Source: Ignavibacteria bacterium (GTDB lineage: Bacteria; Bacteroidota; Ignavibacteria; Tepidaquicellales; OLB5). From it: a stretch of DNA of 64,000 nt. Made by a program: the position numbers and the translations under genes. Below are positions 23,887-49,989 of the stretch, one piece after another. Below the pieces are notes generated by a model. It saw only the letters and a program-made list of their open reading frames with translations. It was not told the DNA's origin and ran no database searches. The first letter of the stretch is position 1, and every line of letters begins with the position of its first letter. The DNA lies in contig JAFLBX010000001.1 of NCBI GenBank assembly GCA_017303675.1, positions 693,970 through 757,969 of the forward strand, read 5' to 3'.

Positions 23887-25347
23887 ATGGTAGATTCAGC
23901 ATTTATAAATATCCTAAAATCATTTTCAAAGGCTGAGATAAGGGGTTTCAGCAGATTTGTAAGCTCACCTTATTTTAATACCAGCGCAAACACTGCCTTA
24001 TTATATGAAGAAATAAAAAAATTCTACCCTTCATTCGGCGGCAAGGATTTCACACGTGAAAAGCTTTTTGCTGTAGTTTATCCCGGCAAAAAATACAATA
24101 AAGACCTGATGAACAGGCTCCTTTCAAACCTGATAAAGCTTGCAGAAAAGTTTATTTCCTTAGAAAGCGGCAGGTATGAAAAGCAGAACCTGCTCTACGG
24201 GTTAAGGCAAAAAAAGCTGTACGGTCATTTTCTTTCTGCAAAGAAAAAGTATGAAAAAAATTCTAAGCTGAATTTATTTGAAGATGAAGATGTAATGCAG
24301 CACCTGCTGCTGGATGATGAGTACGGCAATTACTTTCTTGATACCGATAAATATATCAACTGGGATCTTCATACAGATCTCTCGATGGAGTATCATTTAA
24401 TTCATTTCCTTTACAAGGTTTCACAGGTCTTCCGCCAGAAAACATTCTACTCCACCCAAAAGGACAGAAACAGAAACGCGGCATTCCACCTGGAAGAGTG
24501 TATGGACCTGAAGAAGCTTTACAGCACGGTTAAAAGCTCTGAGATAAAGAACAAAGAGCTGATATGCCATTACCTTACTCTTGTGATTATGAACTCCACA
24601 AAAGATAAACAGCTGTATGAAGAAATAAAGACTTACATATTTTCAAATAAGCAGATAAACAGCACCAGGAGCATTTACATAGGCTATATATATATGCTTG
24701 ATCTCCTTTCGGATGTACTTAAAAATACAACAGGCGAAGAACGAAGATATTACCTTAAGGAAAAGAACCTTGTTTATAAAAAAATCGAAAACGTATATTT
24801 TGCAACAGGCAAAGTAAAAATGCTTTTTGTTTTTTTCAGGAACTTCATTCTTTCAGGAATAAACACCGGAGACCTTAAATGGAGCGAATATGTATTCAAT
24901 AAATATATCCGGGATGTAAGGGAAAAAGGAAATGAATCGGTTGGCAAATATTACGAGTCACTGATACTTTTCCATAAAGGAAAATTTGAAGAAGCACTCC
25001 AGAAGCTTTCGCTGCTTAAGTCAGAAAAATTCCAGATGGATAAGAACCTATATTTTTATGATATAAGAATATTAAGGCTGATGCTTTATTATGAGCTTAA
25101 CTACCTGCAGGAAGCGTTAAGCAATGCTGATGCATTTGTGCATATGCTGAACAAAAGCAGCAAAATGCCGGTTGCCCATAAAGCTTCCGCTTCGTATTTT
25201 GCCTCAGGATATAAAAAAATTCTCGCCTGCAGAATGGATAACAACACTTCATCCCTGCCTGCTGCCATAAAGAAGATATCCGCTGAAAGAAGCTATTACG
25301 GTAAAACCTGGCTGCTGAATAAAGCAGCGGAAATGATGAGAAGATGA
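23887..25347 (+). CDS. Member 1 of a four-copy unrecognised family (SPxFN / PGxKYN family)
   Basis: 486 residues, no signal peptide or membrane segment, almost all-helical by composition. The N-terminus has ILKSFSKAEIRGFSRFVSSP, YFN, then VVYPGKKYNKDLMNRLLSNLIKLAEKF; the C-terminus has KTWLLNKAAEMMRR. The same pattern (S..E...F..F..SP-Y/F-FN; Y/F-PG-x-KYN; L.EKF/Y; C-terminal W-L/F/Y-x-x-K) occurs in genes at 32094, 35860 and 37365. The middle contains repeated short helices with alternating Leu/Tyr that recall TPR-type solenoids. Cytosolic; role unknown, perhaps a scaffold. Confidence 0.8.
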   Translation: MVDSAFINILKSFSKAEIRGFSRFVSSPYFNTSANTALLYEEIKKFYPSFGGKDFTREKLFAVVYPGKKYNKDLMNRLLSNLIKLAEKFISLESGRYEKQNLLYGLRQKKLYGHFLSAKKKYEKNSKLNLFEDEDVMQHLLLDDEYGNYFLDTDKYINWDLHTDLSMEYHLIHFLYKVSQVFRQKTFYSTQKDRNRNAAFHLEECMDLKKLYSTVKSSEIKNKELICHYLTLVIMNSTKDKQLYEEIKTYIFSNKQINSTRSIYIGYIYMLDLLSDVLKNTTGEERRYYLKEKNLVYKKIENVYFATGKVKMLFVFFRNFILSGINTGDLKWSEYVFNKYIRDVREKGNESVGKYYESLILFHKGKFEEALQKLSLLKSEKFQMDKNLYFYDIRILRLMLYYELNYLQEALSNADAFVHMLNKSSKMPVAHKASASYFASGYKKILACRMDNNTSSLPAAIKKISAERSYYGKTWLLNKAAEMMRR

Positions 25348-32093: not shown

Positions 32094-33542
32094 TTACTTT
32101 TTCATCAATTGCTCAATTTTCTCCAGCAGCCATTGTCTTTCGTTTATATTAAATGTATTGGAAATTTCAGATTGTATCTTACTTAACGCTTCTTTATTGC
32201 CTGAAAACTTCAGCAGAGAGTTATAATATTTCAGAAAATTAGAATTTCTTTCTCTTTGCGCCATTGGAAGTAAATTATCCCTTGAAAGGAATTTCCGGTA
32301 AGTATCGGCAACATCCAAAGCCTCTACGAAGCGCTCCATTTCGAAATATATCATTAGAGTCAGGTTCTTAATATTTGTTTTGTGCGAAGCGTTGTTTAAC
32401 GATGTTATTTTGCTCAGGCTCATCAGGGCTTCCTCATGCCTGCCGAAGGCCAGGCTGAGCCTTGCGCGCGAAATGCATCCGGGATTTATTTTATATTCCG
32501 GATTTAGCTGCGGCTCATATTTCTTTATAAAATTTTCGCACCAAACAAGCTCCTTCATCTGGATAGCCACAACAACTATGTTAATAAAAAGCTGCTCATC
32601 AAAGTAACCCCCTTTTTCTGAGGAACTGTATAGATTATTTTCTAAAATAATTTTATGCAGTTCAAATCTTTCCTTCATATAATCAGCGCTGCCTTTATAA
32701 AACTGATCGATTGCAAACGCTGAGAGCGCTGACATGGCATTAAAACGGTCTATCCATACAATCTTTTCCATTTCGTCAACAAGCAGCTCCTTTGTTTTCA
32801 GGTAATATTCAGGCTTGCCTTCCTTCAGCATAAGAGCTTTATTAAATACCAGGCTGAGAAGCGTTGAATTGTATTTTTCGTAGTTTTCCTTCAGATACTC
32901 AAATAATATATCCATAAACTCAAATTCGTATTCAAAATTTACGATCTTTTTCTGTGTGTCAACAAGGCTGAACTCTTTTAAGATCTTAATGAAAAAGAAT
33001 GTTAATATTGACCTGTATTTTGTGTAAGCTTCCTGTTCGGGCAGGTCTTTGTAGTTAAGGAATCTCTGGTTACTAAGCCAGTGGGCTTCCCTGAAAGACT
33101 GCATATTATACTTGCTCAGAAAAAAGTTTTCGTTCTTATATTTTACCTTTTCAAGATTACCTTCTGCCGCTTTTAACTTCCTTAAAAAAGGTCCCTCGAT
33201 GTTTCTTTCTTCAAGCTCTCTTAATATCCGTGTTTCTTCTCCCAGCGGTTCTTTGCGGTACTGGATGTATCCTAAGTAATCTTCTGCAAGATGTGTGAGG
33301 TTAAAAATTAATGTTTTCACGAAACTTTCGTTATATTTTGCCCCGGGAAAAAGCTTTTTGAACATTGACTCTTTATTCAGCAATTCATCTTCAAAATCAG
33401 GAAAGCTCAATGCCAGGTAATCATACAGCCTGGTAACAGATTCATTTTTATTAAAGAAGGGTGAGCGGACATAATCACCGAATTCCCTGAACTCCTGTGA
33501 AGATAAACTGCCAACAATTTGCAATAAGCTGCTCTTTAACAT
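32094..33542 (-). CDS. Member 2 of the four-copy unrecognised family (SPxFN / PGxKYN family)
   Basis: 482 residues. N-terminus LLQIVGSLSSQEFREFGDYV followed by RSPFFNKNESVTRLYDYL, then KLFPGAKYNESFVKTLIFNLTHLAEDYL; C-terminus ERQWLLEKIEQLMKK. It shares the SP-Y/F-FN, F/Y-PG-x-KYN and C-terminal W-L-x-x-K marks with the copies at 23887, 35860 and 37365 but differs widely in between, so the duplication is old. No signal peptide. Stand-alone on the minus strand, separated from the other copies by an unrelated secreted-protein gene. Confidence 0.8.
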   Translation of the reverse strand: MLKSSLLQIVGSLSSQEFREFGDYVRSPFFNKNESVTRLYDYLALSFPDFEDELLNKESMFKKLFPGAKYNESFVKTLIFNLTHLAEDYLGYIQYRKEPLGEETRILRELEERNIEGPFLRKLKAAEGNLEKVKYKNENFFLSKYNMQSFREAHWLSNQRFLNYKDLPEQEAYTKYRSILTFFFIKILKEFSLVDTQKKIVNFEYEFEFMDILFEYLKENYEKYNSTLLSLVFNKALMLKEGKPEYYLKTKELLVDEMEKIVWIDRFNAMSALSAFAIDQFYKGSADYMKERFELHKIILENNLYSSSEKGGYFDEQLFINIVVVAIQMKELVWCENFIKKYEPQLNPEYKINPGCISRARLSLAFGRHEEALMSLSKITSLNNASHKTNIKNLTLMIYFEMERFVEALDVADTYRKFLSRDNLLPMAQRERNSNFLKYYNSLLKFSGNKEALSKIQSEISNTFNINERQWLLEKIEQLMKK

Positions 33543-33841: not shown

Positions 33842-34111
33842 TTGAAAATTGAAAAATTCTACGCTACGCATGGAGATACCGAAGGAGATATTGATCTTCA
33901 ATGGGAGCCATCAAAGGATTCTAAATATTATGTACTGGAAATGTGTATGAAAAAAAACGGAAATCCCGGTTGGAAAACCATAGACATGGTTTCAAGATCA
34001 AGCTATAAAGTTACCGGTTTAAAGAAGAATGTCACTTATAGCTTCCGGGTTGCAAGTGTTACTTCAAAAGGGCAGGGCAAATGGAGCAGTGAAATATCAA
34101 AAAGAATATAA
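33842..34111 (+). CDS. Single fibronectin type III domain protein
   Basis: 89 residues from a TTG preceded by GAGGTG. The whole protein is one FN3 domain: DIDLQWEPSKDSKYYVLEMCMK, WKTIDMVSRSSYKVTGLKKNVTYSFRVASVTSKGQGKWSSEI. No signal peptide is visible, so it is either cytosolic or exported in an unknown way; FN3 domains usually bind proteins or sugars. It lies 37 bp upstream of the SBBP T9SS cargo gene on the same strand and probably shares its transcript. Confidence 0.82.
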   Translation: MKIEKFYATHGDTEGDIDLQWEPSKDSKYYVLEMCMKKNGNPGWKTIDMVSRSSYKVTGLKKNVTYSFRVASVTSKGQGKWSSEISKRI

Positions 34112-35859: not shown

Positions 35860-37344
35860 TTAATTTACGAGTTCTTTCAGCTCTGCTGTTTTTCTCATGA
35901 ACCAGTCTTTACGTGCTGCAAGATACATCTTTGCAGATTTTTCCAGCTCTATAATATCATTAAGTGAATACTTTTCCGGGTTAGCTTTGATTTTAAACAG
36001 CTTTTCAAGCACCATAACACGTGAAGTTAAATGCAGTTTCATCTGTTCGTTAAATTCTGCCGCATCCTTCATAAAGTGTTTCATGGAGTCTATGGCAGAG
36101 AGTCCCTGCTCAACATACCCCAGGTTATAGTATGCAACCAGCGCCACCATTTTTACCGAATATTTCGCCTGGTAATCAGAAAACTCAACATCACGGATAT
36201 ATTCAAGTACTTTTTCGTTATTTCCTTTTGCTTCTTCAATAATCGCCATTGAGTATGCAAAGGAACTTTTCCTTTTACTCTCTTCTATATCCGGCAGGTG
36301 CTTATTTATAACTTCTATCGCGAACTCAAGGTCTCCCATAATTACAAATACTTCAATGATATTCCTGAAAACACCTGCCTGCAGCGGCGCCAGGCCTTCT
36401 GTGTTGAACTTAACATTGGCAAGCTGCGTTTTCCTGATAAAAGCCAGCTCTTTTAAATTTTCTTCTGAGCTTGAAATAACATAATTGTTAAGTATAAAAT
36501 CAAAAAGCGCCGATGTAAGGAACCATTTTTCAGAATTGGAATAGTTGCCTATACCGCTGATGATAAAATCCTTAAGCTCCCTGTAATTCTCATAATTTTG
36601 AGGTTCCCTATAAAGCTTCATCAGCCTTATCTGCAGGCTGATATAATTATAATGTTCCGCCTGGAGCCCTTTAATTTCCTTCAGGAAATTTTCGAAATTA
36701 AAATTCCTGTAAAACGCTTCTGTAACATTTATTTCGGGTATATAGTTAAGCTGGTTCTGCAGGTATTCCATGCCCGCAATATCTTTTTTTATCGTAGCAA
36801 TCATATCGCATGTGCTGAAAATACTCATCGGATACAATGTAACTGAGGCCCCGGTATATTTGCTTTTTATTGTATAGTGTTTGTGAAGGGTTTCAAGCAG
36901 CCTGCCGCGGTTGCGGTAATACCCTGTGCTTAAAACAGAATATTCCGTTTTCTCTTCAAGCTTATTATATTCTGAAAGAAAAAGCTTTTCGAGTGAGTGT
37001 TTATTATAGTTCTTAAGCCTGTTCAGCGCATCTTCAAATTCCCTGCCGGGCTCACCTTCCACGGGATTCACAGCAAGGAATTTTTCGCACAGCCTGAAAA
37101 GCTCGCTGAGCAGGTTTTTCATAATGCCGTAATTGTATTTTTTGCCGGGATAGATCCGCTTAAACAGATCTTCTTCATGCAGCGGTTTTCCGGATTTTTT
37201 CTGCAGGTACATTCGAAGCAGCTTAAAGAGCTTAACCACAGCCTTGTTCGAATTATAATACGGCGACTCAACAAACAGCTCAAAAGATTTAAGCTCAGCC
37301 GGTGAAAGTGCTTTTATAACTTCGAATGATTTATTTTTTAACAT
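35860..37344 (-). CDS. Member 3 of the four-copy unrecognised family (SPxFN / PGxKYN family)
   Basis: 494 residues. N-terminus VIKALSPAELKSFELFVESP, YYNSNKAVVKLFKLLR, then RIYPGKKYNYGIMKNLLSELFRLCEKFL; C-terminus RKDWFMRKTAELKELVN. Nearest to member 4: both have KYNYGIMKNLxSELF and a similar length. It lies directly downstream of member 4 on the same strand with a 20-bp gap, so these two are a tandem duplication in one operon. All-helical, cytosolic, unknown function. The family's N-terminal motif may serve as a small conserved interaction surface; the middle part has drifted. Confidence 0.82.
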   Translation of the reverse strand: MLKNKSFEVIKALSPAELKSFELFVESPYYNSNKAVVKLFKLLRMYLQKKSGKPLHEEDLFKRIYPGKKYNYGIMKNLLSELFRLCEKFLAVNPVEGEPGREFEDALNRLKNYNKHSLEKLFLSEYNKLEEKTEYSVLSTGYYRNRGRLLETLHKHYTIKSKYTGASVTLYPMSIFSTCDMIATIKKDIAGMEYLQNQLNYIPEINVTEAFYRNFNFENFLKEIKGLQAEHYNYISLQIRLMKLYREPQNYENYRELKDFIISGIGNYSNSEKWFLTSALFDFILNNYVISSSEENLKELAFIRKTQLANVKFNTEGLAPLQAGVFRNIIEVFVIMGDLEFAIEVINKHLPDIEESKRKSSFAYSMAIIEEAKGNNEKVLEYIRDVEFSDYQAKYSVKMVALVAYYNLGYVEQGLSAIDSMKHFMKDAAEFNEQMKLHLTSRVMVLEKLFKIKANPEKYSLNDIIELEKSAKMYLAARKDWFMRKTAELKELVN

Positions 37345-37364: not shown

Positions 37365-38846
37365 TTAAAAATATTTCTGTTTAAGCTCTTCAAGCTTTTC
37401 AAGATACCACTCCTTTGGATTTATACCGGAAGATCTAACGAATTCGCTATGTTTATCAAGCTTTCGTACATCATATTTTTCAGGTGAGGAAGATATTTTA
37501 AACAACCCTGTATAAGCCCTGATGCTGTCGTTGAGCTTTTTCCTGAAATCAGGGTGCAGCTCCCCGGTATCGGCAACGAATTTTTTGAATGTATCGATCA
37601 TAGAAAATCCCTGTTCAAACAGTCCAAGCTCATAGCAGCACCTGAGGTACAGAAATTTAGTCCGGAGCTTTATATGAAAATCAGCCTGGTCCGTAAGGGC
37701 AAGCTCTTTAAGGCTTGATTCATAATCCTTTTCCGCAGCAAAAATATATGCCCTTGCAAGCCTGTAGGCTACATCCCTCACAGAAGGATCAACATCCTTT
37801 CTGAACTCTTCGGCAAACCATGATACATACCCGGTATCGCCAAGCCTGATGCCTGAAAGCACTGTATCAAGATACACGGCAAGGAAGATATATCCTGTAT
37901 CTTCGCTGTTCATTTTTACCAAAGAGAACATTTTTTTAAGAATATTGTATTTTTCTGCATAAAACTCCCTGCTTCCTTCAGAAGCTCTTTTTTCGGCATA
38001 TAAGAGAAGATAGTTGTTTATAAGGGTATCAAGCATTTTGTTTGAATACAAATCAGCATTACTGAATATCACATCACGCAGCCTGTAATATATTTCATCG
38101 TTATTGCTGCCTGAGAGAAGCTCTATCAGATTCAATCTTAACAGTATATCATCCTTATGTTTAACAGAAGAGTTTTTTATGAACTCTGAAAAATCCCTGA
38201 TATCAAGGCGCGCTATAAATTCCTCAAGAAGATCTGTTTGCGGCCTTTTATTGGCTGAGTGTTCCGCAGCATACCGCATTGCGTATTCATCAGTAAGTAT
38301 TGAAATGACGTGCGGAAAGATATGTTCAATAACCAAAAGTCCGTTCTGAACATATTCATTCAGACTGCTTCTGCTTCTGTGAAAATCCTTTTCGGCTTCA
38401 AAGATCCTGCTTAAGTTATAATAATAGCTGCCGCTGATCTTTGCGGCTTCGATCTTATTTTTTGTTTTAGCCAGGGTGTGCCTGAAGTGGTCATCAAGAC
38501 CTCTTTGCTCAAGCTCACCAAGCAGTACAAACTGCTGGTCTATTCCGTTTATTGTGTTATTGTTTAGATTGATCACAAGGAATTTTTCAGCCTGCTTAAA
38601 GAGCTCGCTCATAAGGTTCTTCATGATCCCGTAGTTATACTTTTTTCCTTTAAAGATCTTTCCGTACAGAATTTCTTCGGTTATTTCACCGGCTTTTTTA
38701 CCGGTTAATGTTTTTTTTATTTCATTAAAAAGCTTGACCAGGGTTTTATTTGAATTGAAAAATGGTGACTGCAGGTAGAGGTAAAACAGCTTCAGTTCAT
38801 GCTCATTAAAAGTTGAAATAACATCAACAGCTTTATTTTTTATCAT
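37365..38846 (-). CDS. Member 4 of the four-copy unrecognised family (SPxFN / PGxKYN family)
   Basis: 493 residues. N-terminus VISTFNEHELKLFYLYLQSP, FFNSNKTLVKLFNEIKK, then KIFKGKKYNYGIMKNLMSELFKQAEKFL (PG changed to KG here); C-terminus PKEWYLEKLEELKQKYF. First gene of the minus-strand pair with member 3. Divergent from the T9SS gene at 39168, with a 321-bp intergenic region that holds a promoter and a structured leader on the plus strand. Confidence 0.82.
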   Translation of the reverse strand: MIKNKAVDVISTFNEHELKLFYLYLQSPFFNSNKTLVKLFNEIKKTLTGKKAGEITEEILYGKIFKGKKYNYGIMKNLMSELFKQAEKFLVINLNNNTINGIDQQFVLLGELEQRGLDDHFRHTLAKTKNKIEAAKISGSYYYNLSRIFEAEKDFHRSRSSLNEYVQNGLLVIEHIFPHVISILTDEYAMRYAAEHSANKRPQTDLLEEFIARLDIRDFSEFIKNSSVKHKDDILLRLNLIELLSGSNNDEIYYRLRDVIFSNADLYSNKMLDTLINNYLLLYAEKRASEGSREFYAEKYNILKKMFSLVKMNSEDTGYIFLAVYLDTVLSGIRLGDTGYVSWFAEEFRKDVDPSVRDVAYRLARAYIFAAEKDYESSLKELALTDQADFHIKLRTKFLYLRCCYELGLFEQGFSMIDTFKKFVADTGELHPDFRKKLNDSIRAYTGLFKISSSPEKYDVRKLDKHSEFVRSSGINPKEWYLEKLEELKQKYF

Positions 38847-38953
38847 GATTTTTTATGAAAATTATCGCTTCAAAATACGCAAAATTTAAACAAATTTCAC
38901 GTTTTTTTAAGATTACCTGTTTTAGAGTTTTGTGAAAAACCGCATAAAAATTC

Positions 38954-38986
38954 TTTGAAACGGGGCAGCCTGACAGGCTAACTTTG
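38954..38986 (+). promoter_or_regulatory. Bacteroidota-type promoter TTTG-N21-TAACTTTG
   Basis: TTTG at 38954-38957 and TAACTTTG at 38979-38986, 21 bp apart. Transcription would start near 38992, giving a leader of about 175 bases before the ATG at 39168. Confidence 0.72.
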
Positions 38987-38999
38987 TATCAGTTAAAAA

Positions 39000-39120
39000 A
39001 TCCGGTGGGGACCGATGTTCGATCTGAACAGAATAATTCAATTTTAGGTAATTCTCCATCTCCAAATCCCACCGGAGATACGCTGAAAAAGGACCTGTCT
39101 GCAGAATAGCAGACGGGTCT
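39000..39120 (+). ncRNA. Candidate structured 5' leader or small RNA
   Basis: TCCGGTGGG (39001-39009) pairs with CCCACCGGA (39068-39076), closing a 58-base internal region. A second hairpin follows: GACCTGTCTGC (39092-39102), loop AGAATA, GCAGACGGGTC (39109-39119), an 11-pair stem with one T-G pair. Both lie between a clear promoter and the SBBP T9SS gene at 39168 (preceded by AAGGAG). I cannot match it to a known riboswitch class. Regulatory leader, processed small RNA or repeat remnant are all possible. Confidence 0.4.
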
Positions 39121-39167
39121 TAAAGGCGGTATAAAAAATTTTTATAAATTCTATTAAGGAGAGATAC

Positions 39168-40811
39168 ATGAAAAGTATAATAACAATAATTGCGATAATG
39201 ATCATCTGCTCGCCGCGTGACACAAGCTCACAGGTAAGCCAGCAGTGGGCAAAAAGATACAATTCAACCGGTACGGCTAATGATTACGCCAGGGCAATTA
39301 CTTTTGACGCAGCAGGAAATGTATACGTAACAGGCTCGGCAAACAATGATTACTTAACGATCAAATATTCGCCCTCTGGTGATACCCTGTGGAAAGCTGT
39401 ATACAGCGGACCCGCAAACGATAACGATACTCCGAAGGATATTTACGTTGATGCTGCCGGAAATGTTTACATAACCGGCTCCAGCTTCGGGAACAGCAGT
39501 GAAACTGATTATGCAACAATTAAATATGATGCAAACGGTAACCAGCTTTGGGTTCAGAGATATAACGGAACAAATAACGATAACGATGAGGCGGTAAGCG
39601 TGGCAGTTGATGGTTCGGGGAATGTATATGCCGGCGGCTGGTCATCAACGCTGAGCGGCAGTACTGATTTTGTGATCGTAAAATATTCACCCGCTGGTTC
39701 TCAATTATGGACAAGAACCTATAACGGAACATCAGGCGGGAATGAATTTATGAGTAAAATGATAATTGATGCTGCCGGAAATATCTATGCCGCAGGCAGA
39801 AGCAGGGGTGTATCCAATGATGATTTCCTTACGGTAAAATATAACAGCTCGGGAACGCTGCAATGGGCATCCAGGCTGGACGGTAACGGCAACGGAAATG
39901 ACGATGCGGTATCGCTGACAGTAGATAATTTGGGTAATGTTATTGTTACCGGTTACACTTTGGGCAACGGAACAGCAAAAGATTACACAACCGTAAAATA
40001 CAATAATGCAGGTGTTCAGCAGTGGATAAAGAACTATAACAGGATCTCAGCAAGCGAAGATGTACCGGTTGGAATAGTTAATGACCAGCAGGGAAATGTT
40101 TATATAACCGGTTACTGCACGGGGCTGAATACAACATCGCTTGATTATATGACAATTGCCTATAATTCCAACGGTACTCAGCTTTGGGCAAAAAGCTTCA
40201 ACAGCGGACTGGTTGGCGCTGATGATAAAGCTTCTTCAATTGATATCGACGGCTCTGGTAATATTTACGTAACGGGCAGCACAATAAGCAGCGGAAGTGA
40301 TTTTGATTTTGGTACGGTAAAATATTCACCGGCCGGAGAAGTACAGTGGACAATTTTATATGAGAACATTGTTGCCGTGGATGACAATGCAGTAATGGTG
40401 AAAGCAGATAATAACGGTAATGTATATGTAACGGGTTTATCATCGGGATTTTCAGGGGTTGATTTTATGACAGTAAAATACTCGCAGCCCATCGGTATAA
40501 CGCAGCTCGGCACTGAAGTGCCGGAAGGTTTTTCCCTGGGGCAGAACTACCCTAACCCGTTTAATCCGGTGACAAATATCAGGATTCAAATGCCAAACAG
40601 CGGATTAGTAAAGCTTACTGTATTTGATATTACGGGCAAAGAAACTGCGGTATTGATTAATGGAAATCTGAGTGCGGGAACATATAATATCGATTTTGAT
40701 GCATCACATCTTGCATCAGGAACATATTTTTACAGGATGGTTGTTGGTGACAACACCCACAAAGGGGAAAATGGTTTTACCGACGTAAAGAAAATGATTT
40801 TGGTGAAGTAG
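39168..40811 (+). CDS. T9SS-secreted SBBP beta-propeller protein 2
   Basis: 547 residues. Signal peptide about 1-22 (ICSPRDTSSQ), preceded by an AAGGAGAG Shine-Dalgarno. About eight SBBP repeats (AGNVYVTGSANNDYLTIKYSPSGDTLW and variants). T9SS sorting domain at the end (SLGQNYPNPFNPVTNIRIQM, VFDITGKETAVLINGNL, DVKKMILVK). In this copy the stretch corresponding to METAGF of its paralogues is replaced by VVGDNTHKGENGF, an insertion within the last strands of the sorting domain. Expressed from the promoter at 38954 with a structured leader. Confidence 0.9.
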   Translation: MKSIITIIAIMIICSPRDTSSQVSQQWAKRYNSTGTANDYARAITFDAAGNVYVTGSANNDYLTIKYSPSGDTLWKAVYSGPANDNDTPKDIYVDAAGNVYITGSSFGNSSETDYATIKYDANGNQLWVQRYNGTNNDNDEAVSVAVDGSGNVYAGGWSSTLSGSTDFVIVKYSPAGSQLWTRTYNGTSGGNEFMSKMIIDAAGNIYAAGRSRGVSNDDFLTVKYNSSGTLQWASRLDGNGNGNDDAVSLTVDNLGNVIVTGYTLGNGTAKDYTTVKYNNAGVQQWIKNYNRISASEDVPVGIVNDQQGNVYITGYCTGLNTTSLDYMTIAYNSNGTQLWAKSFNSGLVGADDKASSIDIDGSGNIYVTGSTISSGSDFDFGTVKYSPAGEVQWTILYENIVAVDDNAVMVKADNNGNVYVTGLSSGFSGVDFMTVKYSQPIGITQLGTEVPEGFSLGQNYPNPFNPVTNIRIQMPNSGLVKLTVFDITGKETAVLINGNLSAGTYNIDFDASHLASGTYFYRMVVGDNTHKGENGFTDVKKMILVK

Positions 40812-40902: not shown

Positions 40903-43041
40903 ATGTTAAACAAAACAATTGCAACTTTCATCTTAAGCATAGCGCTTATAGCGGGATCGCTGCATGCGCAGATGTTCTGGAACCAGGCAGCAAAGTTTGA
41001 AAATGGCGGATACATCGCCTGCCCAAACACGCTTTCGCTGAATATAATTGGCAGCCTGACAATGGAGGCGTGGGTTTACCCCACTGTTAATTCCGGGGTA
41101 AGGTATATCATATTCAAGGGGAACGCATCCAACGGTTACTATCTTAGACTGAATTCAAACAACACGGTATCACTTGGAACTAACGGTACCAACAGGATAA
41201 CAAGCACGGCGGTAATTCCGGCCGGTAAATGGAGCCATGTTGCAGGGTCGTACGATGTTTCAATTAATGGTTACAAATTGTTTGTGAACGGTCTTGAAGA
41301 CGCATCTGTGATAAGTATAATTAACAGCACGCCTAACAATAACACCGATTCATTATTGATAGGTAAATTCGGGGCAAACACTTTTACAGGTTTGATGGAT
41401 GAAGTGCGGATATGGACAAAGGCAGTAAATCCTACCATGGTAAGAAGAAGTTTCAGAACATCACTTTCAATTTCAAACGGGCAATATGTATCGCTGCTGT
41501 TTTCAATGCCGTTCCAGAGAATAAACAGTTCGGGTACATCATTTACGATTCAGGACCTTTCACTTAACCCTATCTCGGTGAATCCCACATATAACCGCGG
41601 TGTAACAGCGGTTGATCTCAGCAGCAGACCTTCGGATTATTTAAGCGGGAACGAATCACTGGTTTTTGAAGGAAACAATGATTCTTATGCCGAAATAGCA
41701 ACCAATTCCCTCAACAGCATTACCGGCGCTATGACAATTGAGGCATGGATAAATATAACAGGCTCTTCGGCAGTAAATCAATACATAATCCATAAAAATG
41801 CGCCCGGCGGTAACGGCTACAGGCTAATGGTGAACAGCTCACAGAAACTAAGTTTTTCAATTAACAATTCCGTTTTCAACAGCGGCTCTGCTGTAATTGA
41901 ATACAACAAATGGTATCATGTAGCATGGGTTGTTTCCGCATCGGGCAGTTCCTCGCTCTATATCAACGGCAATCTTGATGCATTCTACGGATCATCGGGT
42001 ACACCGGCAGCAAATCCCGAACCGGTATATATAGGCAGAGGGCTAAAGGGCAACATTGATGAGTTGCGGGTATATAAATTTGAGCGCTCAGTTGGTGATA
42101 TTAAAAAATATATGTTTGAATCCATGGATGAAACAAACGCTCCTGCGGGTGATTGTTTTGTATTTAATTTCGATGGTTCTGCCTGGGCACAGAAAAACTT
42201 TCAGGTTTATACATTAAACGGAAATACTTTCTTATCAAATACTGCAGCATTTAACAGTACTTCAAGTCCGCTTGTAAGAGCTGATAATATTAATTTTCGT
42301 GAAGGATTCTATAAAAAGGTTTCAGACCGCAGGATCCCGGTAACGGGCACGCAGGGCGGAATGACTGATGATTCAATATTTATTCCGGATAATGTAAACA
42401 TCAATGATGTAAACCTGTATCTGAGTTTTAACCATGGCGCAGCGGAGCAGCTTGTTGTAACGCTTATTTCACCAACCGGTCAAAGTTACCAGTTTATGAA
42501 CGGTTACGTGAGTCCTGCTTTGGGTAATAATTTCACAACAATTTTTGATGACCAGGCTGACAGCATTCTGGCAAACAACAAATATTATAACCTTCTTCCG
42601 CGGGTTAAGACGACCGGCAGTATTAACAGCGCTTTCACCGGGAACAGTTCCGCCGGAGTATGGAAACTCAGGATCAATGATGTCTCGGGGCTGGAAATTG
42701 GATATTTAGCTGCATGGGGAATTCAGATCAACAACTCACCCGTAATCGGCATACAAAACATTTCAGGTGAAGTACCGGAAAGATTTTCCTTAGGGCAGAA
42801 CTATCCGAATCCGTTTAACCCAAAAACAAATATCAGGATCCAATTACCAAACAGTGGTTTTGTGAAACTCACAGTATTCGATATCACGGGCAAAGAAACT
42901 GCGGTACTTGTGAATGAAGAACTGAGTGCGGGCGCGTATAATATAGATTTTGATGCATCGCAGCTTGCATCAGGAACATATTTTTACAGGATGGAAACTG
43001 CAGGATTTACTGATGTTAAAAAAATGATATTACTGAAATAA
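40903..43041 (+). CDS. T9SS-secreted protein with two LamG-like domains and a proprotein-convertase P domain
   Basis: 712 residues. Signal peptide about 1-22 (LIAGSLHAQ); Shine-Dalgarno AAAGGAG before the ATG. Two concanavalin-A/LamG-like jelly rolls at about 35-190 (GSLTMEAWVYPTV, WSHVAGSYDVS, GLMDEVRIWTKA) and 250-400 (GAMTIEAWINITG, WYHVAWVVSASG, GNIDELRVYKFE). About 475-620 has P-domain features (TDDSIFIPDNVNINDVNLYLSFNH, LVVTLISPTGQ, GVWKLRINDVSGLEIGYLAAWGIQI). A T9SS sorting domain ends the protein. Probably binds glycans at the surface. Lies between two SBBP cargo genes. Confidence 0.9.
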   Translation: MLNKTIATFILSIALIAGSLHAQMFWNQAAKFENGGYIACPNTLSLNIIGSLTMEAWVYPTVNSGVRYIIFKGNASNGYYLRLNSNNTVSLGTNGTNRITSTAVIPAGKWSHVAGSYDVSINGYKLFVNGLEDASVISIINSTPNNNTDSLLIGKFGANTFTGLMDEVRIWTKAVNPTMVRRSFRTSLSISNGQYVSLLFSMPFQRINSSGTSFTIQDLSLNPISVNPTYNRGVTAVDLSSRPSDYLSGNESLVFEGNNDSYAEIATNSLNSITGAMTIEAWINITGSSAVNQYIIHKNAPGGNGYRLMVNSSQKLSFSINNSVFNSGSAVIEYNKWYHVAWVVSASGSSSLYINGNLDAFYGSSGTPAANPEPVYIGRGLKGNIDELRVYKFERSVGDIKKYMFESMDETNAPAGDCFVFNFDGSAWAQKNFQVYTLNGNTFLSNTAAFNSTSSPLVRADNINFREGFYKKVSDRRIPVTGTQGGMTDDSIFIPDNVNINDVNLYLSFNHGAAEQLVVTLISPTGQSYQFMNGYVSPALGNNFTTIFDDQADSILANNKYYNLLPRVKTTGSINSAFTGNSSAGVWKLRINDVSGLEIGYLAAWGIQINNSPVIGIQNISGEVPERFSLGQNYPNPFNPKTNIRIQLPNSGFVKLTVFDITGKETAVLVNEELSAGAYNIDFDASQLASGTYFYRMETAGFTDVKKMILLK

Positions 43042-43203: not shown

Positions 43204-44826
43204 ATGAAAACAATAATATTAATAATTTTAATCGGATTAACGATAGAGTGCACTTCGCAGATAATGCCTGAGCCATCATATATAAACCAGTTATGGAAAG
43301 CGGAATTTGGCGCAGAGAACCAGAAAGGTATGACAGTTGATGCTGCCGGAAATATTTATGTTATCGGTACGATTTTTAACGAAAGCTTTGACTGGCTGAT
43401 AATAAAATACAGTCCTTCCGGTGAAAGGCTTTGGTTTACGCAATTCAATGAAGATTACGGCGGCGATCGTGATGATATACCGCATGCAATAGCTGTTGAT
43501 AACTTAGGCAATGTATACGTTACGGGTGAAAGCTATTATTTATCAGCTGATTACCTTACTATAAAATATAATTCCCAGGGAACTGAACTGTGGCAAAAAA
43601 GATACGGCGGCCCGGGTCAGGATATTGCACTGGGAATTGCGCTGGACGAGAACAGAAATGTGTATGTCACCGGAAAAGAAATGACAAGCGTTAACCTTAA
43701 CTGCGTAACTTTAAAATATTCTTCAGGCGGAACGCTCCTGTGGGAAAAATCGTACGACGGTCCTTCCGGCAATTACGATATGGGAAAAGTAATTGCCGCT
43801 GCTTCAGACGGAAGCATCTATGTTGCAGGCAGCACTGAAACCCCTGCAAACGGGTATGACTATTTGCTTATTAAGTATAATTCATCGGGAACAGAACAAT
43901 GGGTAAGGACTTTTGACGGTCCCGCGCATGGAACTGATGGTGTCAGAAATATGGTACTGGGGTATAACAGCAGTATTTTTATTACAGGAATAAGTGAAGG
44001 CGCAGGAACAGATTATGATTACCTTACAGTAAGGTATAATGCAGCCGGATATATTCAGTGGTCAAAAAGATATAACGGCCCTGTAAACGGAGAAGACCAG
44101 GCAGTATCACTTGCGGTTGATGATATCGGGAATACATATGTAACGGGATACAGTATGTCAAATTTGGGATATGACTATGCAACCGTAAAATACAGCCTTA
44201 ACGGAACTTTCCAGTGGTTAAAAAGGGAAGATGGCAGCAATGCATCTGATGATTATGCCGGTGATATTGCTGTTGATGATGACGGTGATATATATGTAAC
44301 GGGTCATTTTAAAAAAGCCAACGATAACTACCTGATGGCAACGGTAAAATACAGCTCTTCGGGCAGCCAGAAGTGGGTCAAAAAATATAATGTTTCGGGG
44401 AAGGTAAGTGAAGGGAGGAATATTTTTGTTGACGGATCTGAGAATATTATTATTGCCGGTATGAGCGACCAATCCGGAAGCGGCCACGGATGGTACGAGC
44501 AGTTTCTAGTTGTAAAATACACACAAAATCCGTATATAATTGTGAACAGAAACGGAATACCCACTGAATTCTCGCTTTCGCAGAATTATCCTAATCCTTT
44601 TAACCCGGTAACAAAAATATCTTTCAGTATCCCTGATAATTCGTACACAAGGCTTACGGTGTATGATATTTCAGGCAAACTGGCAGCTGAGCTTGTTAAC
44701 GGTGTGCTTGAAGCAGGCTCGTATAATATAGATTTCAATGCATCGCAGCTTGCATCAGGAACATATTTTTACAGGATGGAAACTGCAGGATTTACTGATG
44801 TTAAAAAAATGATCCTGATAAAGTAA
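43204..44826 (+). CDS. T9SS-secreted SBBP beta-propeller protein 3
   Basis: 540 residues. Signal peptide about 1-19 (IGLTIECTSQ). About eight SBBP repeats (AGNIYVIGTIFNESFDWLIIKYSPSGERLW and variants). T9SS sorting domain at the end (FSLSQNYPNPFNPVTKISFS, VYDISGKLAAELVNG, METAGFTDVKKMILIK). The last part of the gene is identical over 76 bp to the end of the LamG gene (42953-43028), which points to recent recombination. Extracellular; binding or scaffold role likely. Confidence 0.9.
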   Translation: MKTIILIILIGLTIECTSQIMPEPSYINQLWKAEFGAENQKGMTVDAAGNIYVIGTIFNESFDWLIIKYSPSGERLWFTQFNEDYGGDRDDIPHAIAVDNLGNVYVTGESYYLSADYLTIKYNSQGTELWQKRYGGPGQDIALGIALDENRNVYVTGKEMTSVNLNCVTLKYSSGGTLLWEKSYDGPSGNYDMGKVIAAASDGSIYVAGSTETPANGYDYLLIKYNSSGTEQWVRTFDGPAHGTDGVRNMVLGYNSSIFITGISEGAGTDYDYLTVRYNAAGYIQWSKRYNGPVNGEDQAVSLAVDDIGNTYVTGYSMSNLGYDYATVKYSLNGTFQWLKREDGSNASDDYAGDIAVDDDGDIYVTGHFKKANDNYLMATVKYSSSGSQKWVKKYNVSGKVSEGRNIFVDGSENIIIAGMSDQSGSGHGWYEQFLVVKYTQNPYIIVNRNGIPTEFSLSQNYPNPFNPVTKISFSIPDNSYTRLTVYDISGKLAAELVNGVLEAGSYNIDFNASQLASGTYFYRMETAGFTDVKKMILIK

Positions 44827-49908: not shown

Positions 49909-49989
49909 TACTTAGAGTTATTTCTCATCCCGAGCTTGTCGGGGGATGATCCGGATCAGTTGATTCATGCATAGTTTTAACCTTTGATA

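Follow-up and report, generated by a model that had tools for sequence, protein, structure and literature searches.

The window analyzed here, a 64,000-nt stretch of the genome of an Ignavibacteria bacterium (G000), contains on its + strand an operon of exported proteins. Its first gene (39168-40811, start codon ATG at 39168) encodes an SBBP repeat protein with a T9SS C-terminal tail (PF06739, 2.1e-31; PF18962, 1.9e-08), followed by a gene for a Laminin_G_3 protein with a T9SS tail (40903-43041, +; PF13385, 7.5e-52) and, downstream, by one for a second SBBP protein with a T9SS tail (43204-44826, +; profile matches). Divergent from this operon, on the - strand, is the gene for a 493-aa protein (37365-38846) of a ~490-residue family that we have chosen to call SPYFN, after a conserved motif. 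Homology searches and neighbor mapping placed a second, tandem paralog at 35860-37344 (-), and a third (32094-33542, -) is divergent from a small fibronectin-like ORF and an SBBP gene, a place from which the leader class described below is absent; a further member of the family lies at 23887-25347. Neighboring genes throughout were called with a simple longest-ORF caller, so some short neighbors may not be genes.

In front of the operon, the original prediction had placed a promoter of the form TTTG-N21-TAACTTTG and two strong hairpins, and all of these were recovered when the sequence was re-read. The -33 element TTTG occupies 38954-38957 and the -7 element TAACTTTG begins 21 nt after it (38979-38986), both on the + strand. 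As -7 boxes lie at -12 to -5 relative to +1 in the accessible text of PMC9723704, transcription would start near 38991, giving a 5′ leader of ~177 nt (38991-39167, +), which is long beside the 5′ UTRs of Flavobacterium psychrophilum in that same text (median 24 bp, mean 65; PMC9723704). Within the leader, helix P1 pairs TCCGGTGGGG (5′ strand, 39001-39010, +), identical in 10/10 orthologs, with TCCCACCGGA (3′ strand, 39067-39076, +), assigned from the ortholog alignment and covariation. The P1 loop holds a GTTC/GAAC hairpin, P2 (39016-39030, +), and, just before the P1 3′ strand, the motif TCTCC (39059-39063, +), invariant in orthologs. A second unit (39081-39128, +) consists of P3, an 11-pair hairpin (39092-39102/39109-39119), above P0, a 4-pair helix (39081-39084/39125-39128, the 3′ strand placed by covariation) that was not in the original list. 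A Shine-Dalgarno-like sequence, AAGGAGAGA (39156-39164, +), precedes the start codon. The claim that the leader is structured was upheld by folding 38986-39170, which gave -57.1 kcal/mol against -35.6 ± 4.0 for 200 dinucleotide shuffles (0/200 as good; z -5.4); the opposite strand folds more weakly (z -3.5).

Scanning the whole window against Rfam 15 at the gathering threshold returned 0 matches, a search of 38900-39250 at E<=5 returned solely matches far below the gathering score, and none of the matches at 14 further leader loci overlapped a leader, in keeping with the earlier remark that the hairpins match no known riboswitch. Structured leaders are a known kind of element, and the leader here represents an RNA family that Rfam 15 does not contain. 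Neither the leader nor SPYFN was found in the literature searched, which does not in itself prove absence from print. Other identities were tried and rejected. The window contains no tRNA or tmRNA, a dispersed repeat was ruled out by the single copy of the leader in G000, and an invertible promoter was discarded on the like orientation of the loop in 10/10 orthologs and the position of the promoter outside P1. A leader-peptide attenuator was likewise rejected, as the 10-codon ORF from the ATG at 39015 in G000 lacks its start codon in G008 and G011 and the frames differ (by eye); so was a transcription attenuator, the sole + strand terminator-like site (38967-38979) lying inside the promoter. 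The promoter and compact structure would also suit a separate small RNA of ~140 nt that ends after P3 and is not a leader; however, no T-run or terminator follows P3 on the + strand, P0 closes P3, and the start codon usually lies ~30-100 nt after P3 in the same orientation, which makes this extremely improbable.

Conservation and covariation of the leader

When 15 genomes of the taxonomic family were searched at the DNA level, the leader was found kept at the home locus in 10 of the 13 genus genomes, G000 included, and was not found in the two non-genus genomes. The SBBP gene or an ortholog (59-84% identical) follows it in nine of these 10, and in G008, where the SBBP gene is gone, the same leader stands directly before the counterpart of the window operon's second gene, Laminin_G. 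Across the 10 orthologs (MAFFT alignment A3), TCCGGTGGGG, TCTCC and CCCACCGGAGATA are invariant, and the central part of the loop differs in both sequence and length; from this alignment, with no structure supplied, RNAalifold recovers P1, P2, P0 and P3.

A covariance model built on the 10 orthologs (R1) yielded diverged leader copies when run against 44 genomes of the order. In the window R1 gives one significant match, so the other two SBBP genes lack the leader, as had been proposed. R1 alone did not give a clean separation, with several of the matches rejected below at E 2e-4 to 0.006, whereas a second model built on 15 leaders (R2) separated cleanly and found further leaders, including four unseen in its building (L302, L309, L310, and L306/L031). 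The sources of the R2 set differ: L290 and L240 were first met in SPYFN-neighbor regions, scored by R1 and then entered into R2, which is circular for those two; L148, L155/L035, and L157 came from the context-free R1 search. L278 (G009) was matched by R2 in fetched loci only, and the genome-wide scans list no G009 match. L149-L154, L156, L158, L160, L303, L304, L307, L308, L311, and L312 were rejected as chance or P3-only matches, none with a SPYFN gene, and L159 and L161, antisense matches at true loci, were left out of the counts. In a class sample of 294 genomes, 15 had matches, namely 11 in the genus, G017, G020, and two that are weak and untrusted.

In total, 20 leaders were aligned: the 10 orthologs and 10 diverged copies from nine genomes, with the copies from G017 and G020 belonging to another taxonomic family. 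Nearly all share the P1 consensus CC-N-GTG-N-G/C-N-CAC-N-GG, the variable positions of which change in pairs, so that the 5′ strand reads TCCGGTGGGG, ACCGGTGAGA or TCCTGTGAGA, and CCTGAGTGAC in G017. Both sides had changed in 20/30 pairs, with 94.9% of cells paired (P1, 5/10 pairs after the diverged copies were added; P0, 4/4; P3, 10/11), and 0/500 shuffles of the same alignment reached any of five covariation measures; alignments A7 and A10 were fitted to the model structure, so that such pair counts lean towards the model; A3 and A9 were made with MAFFT. Besides the 20 leaders, A10 contains an antisense row (L314 minus, 1/21 rows), and A7 contains none. When the 10 diverged copies were aligned with MAFFT alone, RNAalifold found P1 with three compensated pairs, and neither P0 nor P3. 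Each of the 20 leaders folds with z between -4.25 and -7.44. The original prediction had staked itself on covariation in homologs; P1 and P0/P3 both covary, and a real, conserved RNA structure is almost certain. G-U pairs occur on the cargo strand at the P1 inner pair (GU in 10 rows), in P3 (UG in eight), and in P0 (UG in five), and, since the opposite strand would have C-A mismatches in their place, they suggest that RNA, and not a DNA cruciform, is the conserved form.

The leader copies have a conserved promoter upstream and a gene downstream on the same strand, and the element is very probably cis-regulatory. A strict TAnnTTTG box lies 9-18 nt 5′ of P1 in 16/20 leaders, in 14 of which TTTG occurs 19-21 nt further upstream, and from this set distance P1 would be what opens the transcript. 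Such a position, together with G-C-rich helices, no + strand terminator after P3, and no need of a partner, would also suit a 5′ stability element, in which P1, near the 5′ end, shields an abundant exported-protein mRNA from 5′-end-dependent decay with no switch. A pure stabilizer, however, needs no sequence identity, whereas CC-N-GTG / CAC-N-GG recurs and the loop motifs are invariant in orthologs; it would also leave the link to SPYFN genes, described below, unexplained, and we consider it improbable.

The further suggestion of a gene-specific regulator was not supported, because the genes that this RNA precedes, across 14 genomes, are of different kinds: SBBP, LamG, and others for exported proteins. 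The first operon gene encodes a T9SS-tailed protein in 14 of 16 fully mapped loci (judged by eye from the last residues), and the cargoes in G017 and G020 have different C-terminal ends. In G003 (L318, 5176-5825), the cargo gene behind a diverged leader is frameshifted into two ORFs, which may be an assembly error or real.

The SPYFN family and its link to the leader

None of three SPYFN members from the window had a significant Pfam or NCBIfam match or a PADLOC match, and 39 members gave scattered weak repeat-type Pfam matches only. Two structure models were used; the AlphaFold model (AF2) of the 493-aa protein is a confident, all-helical alpha-solenoid (mean pLDDT 90.9), and TPR designs match the C-terminal half by sequence. 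Foldseek returned no match at E<=0.001 for full-length SPYFN. The N-terminal 99 residues reached a best structural Z of 4.5 with no clear fold match, so that a winged helix, which had been expected there, was unsupported by the fold search, and neither Foldseek nor VIA-align recognized a nucleic-acid-binding fold. SPYFN proteins are basic, with a median pI of 8.73 (n=49) compared to 6.24 in 172 other ORFs >250 aa. The best VIA-align matches of the solenoid included the RRNPP proteins Rap and NprR (Z 11.7-13.0, rmsd 5.7-11.6 Å, 278-304 residues), a group that also includes PlcR; however, these scores fall within the range of unrelated helical repeats, and SPYFN has no recognized N-terminal helix-turn-helix. 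The Rap matches at Z 13 do not rise above helical-repeat noise.

The family is abundant. G000 has 50 SPYFN places, 49 of them full-length copies of ~1.46 kb, which amount to ~2% of its 3.65 Mb genome; 13 genus genomes carry 16-57 copies each, and thirteen further searched genomes of the genus, family, and order carry 2-58. At least a few copies also occur in another family of the phylum (G322, G342, G413, and G416), the counts being lower bounds because the phylum survey scored at most eight candidates per genome. The 5′ neighbor of SPYFN is divergent in 41/50 cases in G000 and 77/87 in other genus genomes (raw counts; the neighbor survey covered 80 of 95 prepared regions, several of them overlapping), and this neighbor often carries a T9SS tail.

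The link between leader and SPYFN is specific in one direction: strong leader matches adjoin SPYFN genes. Among the strong matches (E <= 6e-4, 39 genomes), 18 of 19 loci have a SPYFN gene and the nineteenth ends at a contig edge, whereas 0/15 weak or false matches have one; the four leaders outside the R2 building set obey the same rule. SPYFN is divergent from the leader operon in 15/16 fully mapped loci; the exception is G017, with a codirectional SPYFN gene 386 nt upstream of the leader. Conversely, most SPYFN genes lack a leader of this class, as in G000, where there are 50 SPYFN places and one leader. On the SPYFN tree the leader label is clustered (8 changes against a shuffled mean of 14.7; 0/500 shuffles), a result that near-copies favor. 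One G000 member, L212_7680, falls in a clade that is leader-bearing in G005, G009, and G012, yet has no leader match itself.

The pairing of leader with SPYFN is not strict, since different tandem paralogs adjoin the home-locus leader in different genomes and, between G004 and G014, the cargo (63% similar) is better kept than SPYFN (just 28% identical). The three tandem home-locus paralogs appear to have undergone differential loss. G005 and G009 show the reverse, keeping the leader and SPYFN while the cargo changes: their SPYFN proteins are 76% identical and P1 is the same, and the cargoes are alike over a ~98-residue stretch only.

The divergent position of most SPYFN genes, with or without a leader, and the basic character of the proteins would both be accounted for if SPYFN were a DNA-binding regulator of divergent promoters and the leader an independent RNA in the same intergenic region. 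The confinement of strong leader matches to SPYFN neighborhoods would then go unexplained, however, and no helix-turn-helix was recognized, although the fold search of the N-terminal domain gave no clear match of any kind; this explanation is somewhat unlikely.

Candidate mode of action

The reading that we favor, tentatively and at a little under an even chance, is that of a cis-acting leader of T9SS-cargo operons that acts on translation or mRNA stability and is probably bound by the neighboring SPYFN protein; its basis is the promoter, the covarying P1 and P0/P3, the sense-strand orientation, and the SPYFN neighbor. The leader, lying between the SPYFN gene and the operon it precedes, would be transcribed and would act after transcription start, on translation initiation and/or mRNA stability, since P3 is not followed by a terminator. 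SPYFN, as a basic alpha-solenoid, would bind P1 and the nearby loop. Regulator genes commonly lie divergent from their targets, and for this reason, as well as for the basic pI of the family and the strong leader matches beside its genes, SPYFN is the best trans-acting candidate; that it is the direct partner of the leader is possible, with the balance somewhat against.

Some copies allow an alternative pairing, of the P1 3′ strand or the adjoining TCTCC with the Shine-Dalgarno region, so that an open versus closed P1 could switch translation. In G005, G009, and G012a the P1 5′ strand recurs at the Shine-Dalgarno region (GTGAGATAG, GTGAGATGG), and this second copy could take the P1 3′ strand; GGTGGGA in G006 could do likewise, and in G003b the sequence opposite the loop is ATTAAAAGGAGA. 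In the window the pairing of TCTCC with GGAGA is modest, with 15/300 shuffles as good (post hoc). The pairing is strong in 5/19 leaders and there is none in several (post hoc), and a permutation over six groups gave 0.004, a value that is also post hoc and driven by two groups. Because it is strong in some leaders and absent in several, Shine-Dalgarno sequestration would be one lineage-dependent output and not the rule, and as a general output it is unlikely.

The same pairing would fit a small-molecule riboswitch, in which P1 is the regulatory helix, GGGG-N-CC, TCTCC, and GGAGATA bind the ligand, and SPYFN is mere genomic linkage, and among the orthologs TCTCC and GGAGATA, both single-stranded, are invariant, which points the same way. 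Ligand pockets, however, are kept, and here only a pyrimidine-rich stretch of the loop is common to the orthologous and diverged groups, P2 being gapped in the diverged copies. The controlled genes encode surface proteins with no common metabolite, and Rfam gave no match; a riboswitch is unlikely. SAM-II and other pseudoknot riboswitches resemble the leader in having a long-range helix, a strand of which may pair with the Shine-Dalgarno region, and differ from it in that the leader has no Rfam match, a variable loop, no metabolic genes, and no general Shine-Dalgarno pairing.

For the SPYFN-bound leader that we favor, ribosomal-protein and other protein-bound autoregulatory leaders offer a parallel, with a structured 5′ UTR, covarying helices, and an output in translation or stability. 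In ribosomal-protein-type leaders, as proposed here, the ligand is a protein encoded beside the RNA; unlike them, the candidate partner is encoded divergently, outside the controlled operon, and belongs to an uncharacterized family. Candidate structured RNAs of Bacteroidetes/Chlorobi (Flavo-1, Chlorobi-1, Chlorobi-RRM, SAM-Chlorobi, and Lnt), as presented in the accessible text of PMC2864571, are likewise motifs from comparative genomics, in the same broad bacterial group and mostly of unknown function; those with Rfam entries do not match the leader, and none is described in that text beside SPYFN-like genes (PMC2864571).

PPR and OPR proteins share with SPYFN an alpha-solenoid fold, many paralogs, and basic character, and designed PPR chains were among the weak Foldseek matches (E >= 0.027). 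SPYFN differs in having no significant sequence match, a weak structural match that is one among all helical repeats, and RNA binding that is putative. A broader conjecture, which we consider distinctly improbable, is that the dozens of paralogous SPYFN proteins are locus-specific regulators of Ignavibacteria surface-protein operons, a subset of which read a dedicated leader with P1 recoded per lineage. If true, the SPYFN-leader system would be a bacterial counterpart of organellar PPR/OPR systems, choosing which surface proteins are made. To our knowledge, little is known about how the choice of surface protein is made in bacteria with a large repertoire of T9SS cargoes; with a proposed regulator, a proposed RNA target, and natural cargo exchanges in hand, this choice becomes directly testable. 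The leader also gives the little-studied Ignavibacteria a well-supported RNA family and offers a first handle on SPYFN, a family that occupies ~2% of the G000 genome and, in the three window members searched, matches nothing significantly in Pfam, NCBIfam or PADLOC.

Other elements at SPYFN loci

A long inverted repeat at every SPYFN intergenic region was considered and rejected, as such repeats were found in 8/40 SPYFN-divergent and 8/83 control regions of G000, with no clear enrichment. By folding, 12/112 SPYFN regions beat all 25 shuffles (expected, 4.3), these being partly orthologs. A second, unrelated structured leader was seen upstream of a SPYFN-divergent gene at L297, L300, L206, L270, and L279; it has a long P1, such as GGCTATATGATGC/GCATCGTATAGCC, and a loop ATCCCCC that can pair with a TTTGGGGGAT-like sequence before the start codon, with <=2/300 shuffles as good in four of the five. 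Further strong long-range hairpins, mostly each with its own sequence, lie between SPYFN and divergent genes at L201:14190, L296, L276, L198, L195:5356, L247, L254, and L214.

In the intergenic regions of L199, L208, L210, and L212 (14453), other SPYFN-divergent genes have in their leader a small ORF with a RGYRLKPGTHKLI-like sequence and GTGCAC motifs, which looks like that of a small DNA-binding protein. An ORF of ~90-110 aa, fibronectin-like by eye, recurs divergent from SPYFN, in the window at 33842-34111 and elsewhere at L229, L244, L239, L248, L251, L277, L281, L282, L286, L288, L295, and L298. Finally, upstream of the ORF at 49984, the window contains a 25-nt inverted repeat, CCTTCGACAAGCTCAGGGTGAGAGA, with an 88-nt loop.
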